IMG/VR virus record: IMGVR_UViG_3300028498_000012
Coordinates: 3,210 to 24,693 of that record
Length of the DNA: 21,484 nt
Source of the DNA: a virus
Reading direction: 5' to 3' (one strand)
Position 1 is the stretch's first letter. The number at the start of each line of letters is the position of its first letter. Shown here in pieces: positions 8,420-20,643 of the stretch. The translations under genes were made by a program, and so were the position numbers. The notes under the pieces were generated by a model, which saw nothing but the letters and a program-made list of their open reading frames with translations, was not told the DNA's origin and did not search any database.

Positions 8420-8629
8420 TTAGTATTCAAACACTCTTATTTCAAAATCTTCATTAGGGTACTGTTCTTTGCACCTATCCAACATAACTATAGCCTCATG
8501 CTGCCAGTTGAAAAAAGTCGCTGAGTTTGGTGCTACGTCCAAAATTATCATCAGCTTTCTTGAGGATGAAGTTCCGCAGTGTATAAATTTTCCATTACTA
8601 CCAACTATCCCACAAAATATATTTCCCAT
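8420..8629 (-). CDS. Unknown 69-aa accessory protein
   Basis: A small protein beginning MGNIFCGIVGSNGKFIHCGT, with two cysteines in the first 18 residues and a C-terminal FNWQHEAIVMLDRCKEQYPN EDFEIRVFEY. I do not recognise a family. There is no signal peptide and no membrane segment. It is a free-standing cassette: it has its own extended -10 promoter (8721-8729), an approximately 85-nt structured leader, a weak Shine-Dalgarno sequence (GAGTGA) and a strong terminator. It sits between the neck terminator and sheath genes, where structural genes usually adjoin, so it is probably a moron expressed in the lysogen. Confidence 0.7.
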   Translation of the reverse strand: MGNIFCGIVGSNGKFIHCGTSSSRKLMIILDVAPNSATFFNWQHEAIVMLDRCKEQYPNEDFEIRVFEY

Positions 8630-8663
8630 ATCATCACTCGCTTAGTAATCGCTAATAGAAGTT

Positions 8664-8714
8664 GTCGGAAACAAGTTAGCGTCACTTGCTTTCAGGTGTA
8701 CAGCCCTATCCGAC
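8664..8714 (-). promoter_or_regulatory. Structured 5' leader RNA element, copy A
   Basis: In the minus-strand transcript, GUCGGA (8714-8709) pairs with UCCGAC (8669-8664). Inside are UAGG facing ACCUGAAAG, then a 5-bp hairpin CAAGU/ACUUG (8688-8684 with 8676-8672) with a 7-nt loop. The loop side CGCUAA (8681-8676) is complementary to UUAGCG at 8655-8650, close to the start codon, giving a possible pseudoknot. The predicted +1, seven bases after the -10, is exactly the first G of the outer stem. The same order of elements is found in the leader at 20529-20588 with a compensating base-pair change. See Findings. Confidence 0.55.
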
Positions 8715-8720
8715 CTATCT

Positions 8721-8729
8721 ATTATAGCA
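8721..8729 (-). promoter_or_regulatory. Extended -10 promoter for the 69-aa gene
   Basis: Minus strand TGCTATAAT, a perfect TGn extended -10 with consensus TATAAT. No good -35 is seen 16-18 bp upstream, which an extended -10 can tolerate. It begins 12 nt after the neck gene's stop codon. Confidence 0.7.
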
Positions 8730-19913: not shown

Positions 19914-20492
19914 TTAAGAATCTAAAGACCACTGCATGAGCGCATCAAAAACATCGCTAGCAATTTTATCTTGCCACTCTAACGCCTTTTTTTTGACATG
20001 CCGTTCTTTGGTTGACTTATAAACATCATAAGCTTCTTGTGGGCAATCAAAATAACCAAGATGCTGTTTTTTGCCGTCGACTTTCATACTGGCAAAATAC
20101 TTACCCATTGGTTTATTAAAACTAACACCTTGTGGATTTTTACTTCTTGCCGCTCTTGAGTCTGTTAATATCTTATTCAGCTCTTGAGGTACAAAGCAGC
20201 AAGTAATAGACGAATATATTTTATTGCTAGGAGTTAACAAGTCCTTATCTAAGTCGTAGCCTAAGTCTGAATATTTGTGATTAGCATACCACTCTGCGAA
20301 AGCTTGGAAATCACACCAATCATCAGCAACACTACATCCGATATATGTTGGATATCTAGCCTGATACCTTTCTGAGTAACATCGCTCAATCATGTTACGC
20401 CAAACAATGTAAGTCCTATTAGGCTTAGAGTTTTCCCCCGTGCGGTACTTGCCGCCTGAATTAAAAGCAACACCACAAAGCAACTTACTCAT
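19914..20492 (-). CDS. AP2-domain homing-type protein (HNH-like relic)
   Basis: A 192-aa protein. Residues about 25-115 follow the pattern of phage homing-type proteins: YIVWRNMIERCYSERYQARY PTYIGCSVADDWCDFQAF, then LDKDLLTPSNKIYSSITCCF VPQELNKIL. Residues about 125-170 are an AP2-like DNA-binding domain: GVSFNKPMGKYFASMKVDGK KQHLGYFDCPQEAYDVYKS. A complete HNH catalytic set (two His and Asn in the usual places) is not evident, so cutting activity is doubtful. Free-standing genes of this type spread by homing into phage late regions. It has its own promoter, a structured leader and a terminator. Shine-Dalgarno AGAGG, 7-nt spacer. Confidence 0.75.
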   Translation of the reverse strand: MSKLLCGVAFNSGGKYRTGENSKPNRTYIVWRNMIERCYSERYQARYPTYIGCSVADDWCDFQAFAEWYANHKYSDLGYDLDKDLLTPSNKIYSSITCCFVPQELNKILTDSRAARSKNPQGVSFNKPMGKYFASMKVDGKKQHLGYFDCPQEAYDVYKSTKERHVKKKALEWQDKIASDVFDALMQWSLDS

Positions 20493-20496
20493 AATA

Positions 20497-20545
20497 ACAC
20501 CTCTGTTATTTACAACCTGATGAAAGGTGTCGGCAACTTTCAGGT
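20497..20545 (-). promoter_or_regulatory. Candidate translation switch hiding the ribosome binding site
   Basis: In the mRNA, ACACCU (20530-20525) can pair with AGGUGU (20502-20497), which contains the Shine-Dalgarno sequence of the AP2-domain gene. Two bases of ACACCU (20530-20529) also belong to the outer stem of the leader element, so stem and sequester compete. A 7-bp alternative, AACCUGA (20546-20540) with UCAGGUU (20520-20514), competes with the inner leader stem. Confidence 0.45.
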
Positions 20546-20588
20546 TAAAAGTGTTTCAGTAGGGGTAATTAATCCCTACCTAGCCGAC
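20529..20588 (-). promoter_or_regulatory. Structured 5' leader RNA element, copy B
   Basis: Outer stem GUCGGC (20588-20583) with GCCGAC (20534-20529). Inside are UAGG, a hairpin UAGGG/CCCUA (20578-20574 with 20564-20560), then CCUGAAAGUU before the closing strand. The outer stem differs from copy A (8664-8714) at its last pair, C-G instead of A-U, which keeps pairing. The predicted transcript start falls on the first base of the stem, as in copy A. Confidence 0.55.
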
Positions 20589-20594
20589 ATAGTT

Positions 20595-20603
20595 ATTATA
20601 CCA
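20595..20603 (-). promoter_or_regulatory. Extended -10 promoter of the AP2-domain gene
   Basis: Minus strand TGGTATAAT, with no good -35. The outer leader stem begins 7 bases after the hexamer. The promoter lies directly after the terminator at 20611-20643. Confidence 0.7.
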
Positions 20604-20610
20604 TAATACA

Positions 20611-20643
20611 TAAAAATAAGCCCCACAAATTAATGTAGGGCTT
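20611..20643 (-). terminator. Strong terminator ending the late leader RNA (tR'-like)
   Basis: Minus strand AAGCCCTACA pairs with TGTGGGGCTT (10 bp, one G-U) around a 6-nt loop, then ATTTTTA. It stands between the late promoter candidate and the terminase genes, where lambda has tR'. Confidence 0.88.

Follow-up and report, generated by a model that had tools for sequence, protein, structure and literature searches.

The stretch of DNA analysed here (21,484 nucleotides, called the window below) belongs to a Psychrobacter-type phage and carries two structured mRNA leaders, A (8714–8627) and B (20588–20490), both on the minus strand and each in front of an accessory gene. They have in common an extended -10 box, a predicted transcript start at the first base of the outer stem P1, and a three-way-junction fold. 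Phages and prophages yielded more than 100 related leaders. The structured leader, and the covariation of its P3 loop with two separate sites further along the same mRNA, are well supported by these sequence comparisons; control of translation by the leader is likely, and we regard it as probable that A and B act in cis at translation initiation through two mutually exclusive pseudoknots. The elements of the two cassettes are as follows.

8721–8729, minus strand: A, extended -10 box TGCTATAAT, six bases 5′ of P1
8709–8714, minus strand: A, P1 5′ strand GUCGGA; 8714 is the predicted +1
8694–8708, minus strand: A, J1/2 'UA' (8708–8707) and P2 hairpin GGGCUGUACACCU
8690–8693, minus strand: A, J2/3 'GAAA'
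8671–8689, minus strand: A, P3 hairpin GCAAGU-GACGCUA-ACUUGU, with CGCUA in the loop (8683–8677)
8664–8669, minus strand: A, P1 3′ strand UCCGAC
8650–8655, minus strand: A, site 1 (decoy) UUAGCG, complement of the P3 loop
8633–8649, minus strand: A, P4 hairpin AUUAC (8649–8645)/GUGAU (8637–8633)
8642–8639, minus strand: A, site 2 AGCG in the P4 loop, which also holds a weak Shine-Dalgarno (SD) sequence GCGAG
8420–8629, minus strand: A, downstream ORF of 69 aa
8371–8394, minus strand: A, terminator-like hairpin at the end of the cassette
20618–20643, minus strand: B, terminator-like hairpin 5′ of the promoter
20595–20603, minus strand: B, extended -10 box TGGTATAAT, six bases 5′ of GUCGG
20583–20588, minus strand: B, P1 5′ strand GUCGGC; 20588 is the predicted +1
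20558–20582, minus strand: B, J1/2 'UA' and P2 GGUAGGG (20580–20574)/CCCUACU (20564–20558)
20536–20557, minus strand: B, J2/3 GAAAC and P3 ACUUU-UAACCUG-AAAGU, loop 20547–20541
20529–20534, minus strand: B, P1 3′ strand GCCGAC
20514–20519, minus strand: B, site 1 CAGGUU, complement of the loop AACCUG and compensatory relative to CGCUA/UAGCG in A
20493–20510, minus strand: B, P4 AAUAAC/GUUAUU, its loop containing the SD AGAGGUG, with site 2 AGGU (20502–20499) inside the SD
19914–20492, minus strand: B, downstream ORF of 192 aa
19864–19891, minus strand: B, terminator-like hairpin 3′ of the ORF

Both cassettes look self-contained, each consisting of a promoter, a leader, a single ORF and a terminator-like hairpin. 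The initial annotation had described two leaders with a common promoter and fold, and these are present: the TGnTATAAT-type box stands six bases 5′ of GUCGG in each (8729–8721 and 20603–20595), RNAfold predicts the three-way junction in A (z −1.8) and in B (z −4.3), and the exchange of A-U for C-G in the outer stem keeps the pairing (GUCGGA/UCCGAC in A, GUCGGC/GCCGAC in B). Its reading of the interior has to be revised. The supposed common box CCUGAAAG is made of different elements, closing P2 and forming J2/3 in A, and supplying the P3 loop and the P3 3′ strand in B; the RNAfold structures and the comparison of homologues rule out that the two are homologous, and the real counterpart in B is CUACUGAAAC (20562–20553). 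The hairpins that had been equated as variable parts of the element are P3 in A and P2 in B. The proposed extent of 51–60 bases covers only the first half of the element, and the decoy site, P4 and the ribosome-binding site continue it to the start codons at 8629 (A) and 20492 (B). Two more accessory ORFs of the phage (15101–15066 and 11332–11297, minus strand) have the same extended -10 box TGCTATAAT; their leaders are short and unstructured, with ACAAGGGGTT in common ahead of the ATG, and are a second leader type within the same phage.

Close relatives were found in viral contigs with a gapped pattern, among them a locus (L007) with P2 GGUUGAG/CUUAACU where B has GGUAGGG/CCCUACU. BLAST located the leader in the Psychrobacter phages pOW20-A and Y8A and in Shewanella phage Y11, P1 being changed yet paired in Y8A (GCUGCC/GGCAGC) and in Y11 (GUUGGA/UCCAAC). 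Restricted to site 1 and P4, which follow P1, a further pattern matched 28 viral stretches; some half of these have the full structure, the remainder being by inspection without a complete one. The two common P2 cores added, among the matches listed, at least well over 100 further leaders. Named hosts are Vibrio, Aeromonas, Pasteurella, Acinetobacter, Edwardsiella, Pantoea, Salmonella, Enterobacter, Klebsiella, Pseudomonas and Rhizobium, a list in which part of the BLAST matches span the core alone and were not individually inspected; a related leader is present in 52 of 5,426 E. coli genomes. Searches with the covariance model R1 (see below) in 296 genomes of one bacterial order, and with the site 1/P4 pattern in 369 genomes of one bacterial class, gave no match, and since Moraxellaceae may be missing from both samples these blanks do not count as negatives for the hosts. 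In the same class, the Rfam family int-alpA (RF02996) has matches in 34 of 274 genomes. Eleven strict-pattern matches in genome contigs were set aside as chance, none of them combining fold, promoter and start codon. One locus (L046, 10330–10386) has a degenerate leader in which P1, site 1, P4 and the SD are kept and P2 and P3 are gone; this is a natural deletion, useful for asking what P3 does.

The helices show the compensatory changes of a structured RNA family, as had been proposed from the two copies. Among 13 aligned leaders, 96.9% of paired cells can pair, the covariation score is 0.424 against 0.170 after shuffling, and both sides have changed in five of the six P1 pairs and all six P3 pairs. 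For 27 leaders of other types the score is 0.875 (0.195 shuffled), with P1 figures that are inflated because only members with a pairable P1 were admitted. A P1 partner was found in 130 of 146 matches, and in 72 of 146 when the 5′ strands were swapped. The model R2, built from the 27 leaders and holding no A-type sequence, has a single match in the window, which is A (8716–8662, 28.7 bits, E 5.6e-7); B was not matched. With filters off, R1 picks out two copies in the window and no others: A, a training member, at 94.7 bits, and B, which was left out of training although its homologue L007 was included, at 26.1 bits (E 1.6e-4), the next match having an E of 2.6. The initial annotation would have been undone by a lack of homologues or of covariation; with over 100 relatives and strong covariation in P1 and P3 the observation is secure, where two copies by themselves would be weak evidence. 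As the phage carries the element twice, with one promoter type and one 5′ half of P1 common to both, a recent duplication of one promoter-leader cassette, without any function at the RNA level, might also be considered. This is already refuted by the family-wide compensatory changes in P1 and P3, to which the change in the pseudoknot between A and B is added, and its probability is negligible.

In the second half of the element, P1 is followed by site 1, after which P4 encloses site 2 and the SD between its two strands, ahead of the start codon. In a set of 96 leaders, each with a different loop, 82 can form at least four Watson-Crick pairs between the loop and both sites; when loops were exchanged between leaders (300 trials), the mean was 10.8 and the maximum 20. 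The other 14 have no clear second site by this test. Site 2 overlaps the SD in 62 of the 82, and its end lies a median of 8 nt from the start codon. P4 itself has 5.27 pairs on average, against 3.71 ± 0.10 with swapped 3′ strands. Two-site pairing also holds among the distinct-loop leaders selected independently with RF02996 (16 of 21, compared with 8.4 and a maximum of 13 for swapped loops). A triple change is seen between two leaders of pOW20-A, in which the loop goes from CGCUA to CACUA, site 1 from UAGCG to UAGUG and site 2 from AGCG to AGUG. In the window, loop, site 1 and site 2 read CGCUA/UAGCG/AGCG in A and AACCUG/CAGGUU/AGGU in B. The site 2 pairing amounts to only 4 bp in each, the SD of A is weak, and for B the automatic search chose another 4-base match, GUUA, so that AGGU:ACCU at the SD is a manual reading.

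The covariation shows that both pairings are kept, not in itself that the leader switches; a switch between them is what we propose. The transcript would begin at P1 and fold into the P1/P2/P3 three-way junction around its UA and GANA core. In one state (PK1), the P3 loop would bind site 1, which lies immediately 5′ of P4; in the other (PK2), with site 2 in the P4 loop, overlapping the SD. As PK1 and PK2 are mutually exclusive, the leader would have an SD-released and an SD-masked state, PK2 presumably being OFF and PK1 ON or poised, and P4 would either present the SD region or mask it further. Mean duplex energies at the two sites are similar (−6.4 kcal/mol for site 1, −5.6 for site 2), as expected of a bistable element. 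Pairing with site 1 is the stronger in 56 of the 82 leaders, so that masking of the SD may be a minor state. The same bias would suit a static leader, in which nothing is switched: the fold would serve to insulate the ribosome-binding site, to position it or to protect the 5′ end of the mRNA, and site 1 would complete a compact pseudoknot beside P4. In roughly half of the family P1 coincides with the predicted start of transcription, and the functional diversity of the genes behind it would befit such a generic device. A static PK1, however, would not need a site 2 that tracks the loop across some 80 different loops, and we consider this alternative unlikely.

The nucleotides of the core (UA in J1/2, GANA in J2/3) are conserved while the helices vary. 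In the two-pseudoknot reading, the junction might tune the balance between the states, perhaps with a ligand or protein. The conservation would also suit an operator at which a phage- or host-encoded RNA-binding protein reads the core and either obstructs or frees the ribosome-binding site, and phage translational repressors, which are said in the T4 literature to exist, offer a precedent. No candidate protein has been linked to the leaders, and their spread over phages of many hosts means that it would have to be host-encoded; of the two alternatives to switching, this is the more improbable.

That the leaders precede genes, as first proposed, is borne out: 110 of 130 structured core matches have an ATG-initiated ORF of at least 50 aa starting 18–60 nt after P1 (23% at random positions), and by inspection many of the other 20 seem to use GTG or TTG. 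The distance from P1 to the start codon is narrow (median 35 nt, quartiles 32–39), and a -10 box 4–9 nt before P1 occurs in 45 of 99 leaders against 1–9 of 99 at control positions. A trans-acting small RNA, which is how Rfam types int-alpA, would be compatible with the U-rich (43%), G-poor (6%) stretch after P1. Such a role is hard to reconcile with so narrow a spacing and with a P3 loop that matches sites within its own mRNA, and we judge it very improbable. Among 115 downstream proteins, the HNH, GIY-YIG, endonuclease VII, AP2 and NUMOD families are frequent, others being DUF1376/primosomal, Rha or Bro proteins, and many belong to no known family. The 69-aa product behind A matched no Pfam or PHROG family. 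That behind B has a trace of an AP2 domain (E 0.008, below the Pfam cut-off) and is 54% identical to the product of the leader-bearing gene in L007, its only relative in the viral contigs; it is probably homing-endonuclease-like. The A and B proteins, otherwise unlike, start similarly (MGNIFCGIVGSNGKF, 8629–8580, and MSKLLCGVAFNSGGKY, 20492–20440), and the product of A could be a relative that was trimmed, or a case of a fused start. At another locus (L090, 1883–2892), a leader of the family stands 5′ of an HNH-type gene, and a group I intron core (RF00028) comes directly after that gene; the endonuclease may be intron-borne and have a leader of its own.

The purpose of cis-acting control through the two pseudoknots would be to hold down or time the output of phage accessory genes, among which homing-endonuclease genes are common. 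A broader proposal, which we put forward only tentatively, is that translational riboswitches dependent on a ligand or factor are widespread in phages, their loop shuttling between decoy and SD ahead of hundreds of homing-endonuclease and accessory genes, int-alpA itself being a cis switch and not an sRNA. Were control through the two pseudoknots borne out, what Rfam lists as an orphan 'sRNA' family would become a cis translational leader, present in the phages and prophages that infect many Gram-negative hosts; mobile homing-endonuclease and accessory genes would bring their own dose control into busy late operons; and a loop that is free to vary while the SD region follows it would be a natural re-programmable translational switch. 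With its three short complementary segments, the mechanism is specific enough to test.

Among known RNAs the nearest is int-alpA, and since the core relates to it the RNA is not wholly new, contrary to what the initial annotation had thought possible; of 35 loci scanned with RF02996, 9 exceed its cut-off. Searched with RF02996, A and B themselves gave no match at the gathering cut-off (35.8 bits) or at E values up to 10, and for this reason they are not counted as members of the family as defined. The model R2, made from other phage leaders, matches A as well as loci picked with RF02996, which unites int-alpA and these leaders in one superfamily. On these model matches A is within the wider superfamily, and both A and B are outside the part of it that Rfam describes. 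The likeness extends to the P1-UAG-P2-CGAAA-P3-P1 junction, in which a short P2 and the UAG...CGAAA feature appear as UAGG...CCUGAAA in A and UAGG...CUGAAA in B (the first C of CGAAA is U in both), to an Rfam consensus that ends at the site 1 sequence, and to two RF02996-selected loci (L257, L266) with the identical P2 core UAGGGUAGCUCCCGAA. By contrast, the printed Rfam structure is typed 'Gene; sRNA' and shows neither a pseudoknot nor site 2 nor P4, whereas the A/B-type element is a cis-acting leader whose loop has two competing targets; in both respects it exceeds that description. In the literature searched, which did not extend to the original motif paper, int-alpA was mentioned only as a genome annotation. 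In Pasteurella phage Pmp7 (L243, a small, satellite-sized phage with a 10.7 kb record), a core match at about 1501–1580 lies 5′ of a hypothetical gene that adjoins an excisionase/regulator gene, a setting in keeping with the association of int and alpA implied by the name. At E values up to 10, the only Rfam matches were weak look-alikes of isrJ, Betaproteobacteria_toxic_sRNA and snoR80, at the terminator 5′ of B and its surroundings, all below their cut-offs. Identities as a hammerhead, twister, pistol or group I intron RNA were discarded, there being no matching cores and no Rfam match.

In flavivirus xrRNA, a three-way junction is followed by pairing of the P3 loop just downstream and then by P4. 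The likeness is one of topology only: no sequence relation has been shown, and A and B are mRNA leaders of a bacterial virus, with a ribosome-binding site. Riboswitches of the preQ1 and SAM-II type have a loop that pairs with the SD region, as do A and B, for which the same function is suggested; A and B differ in that no Rfam riboswitch model matched either of them and that the downstream genes share no pathway. The T4-type homing endonuclease genes I-TevI, mobE and segB also have an SD that is masked by structure in the leader RNA (PMC2988022), and are thus alike in being phage homing-endonuclease genes with leader structure over the SD. Theirs is a simple hairpin on read-through transcripts, bypassed by a late promoter (PMC2988022). 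In A and B, on the other hand, the -10 box is 5′ of the complete structure, not internal to it as a bypass promoter would be, and the promoter thus precedes an entire element with a conserved junction and pseudoknots.
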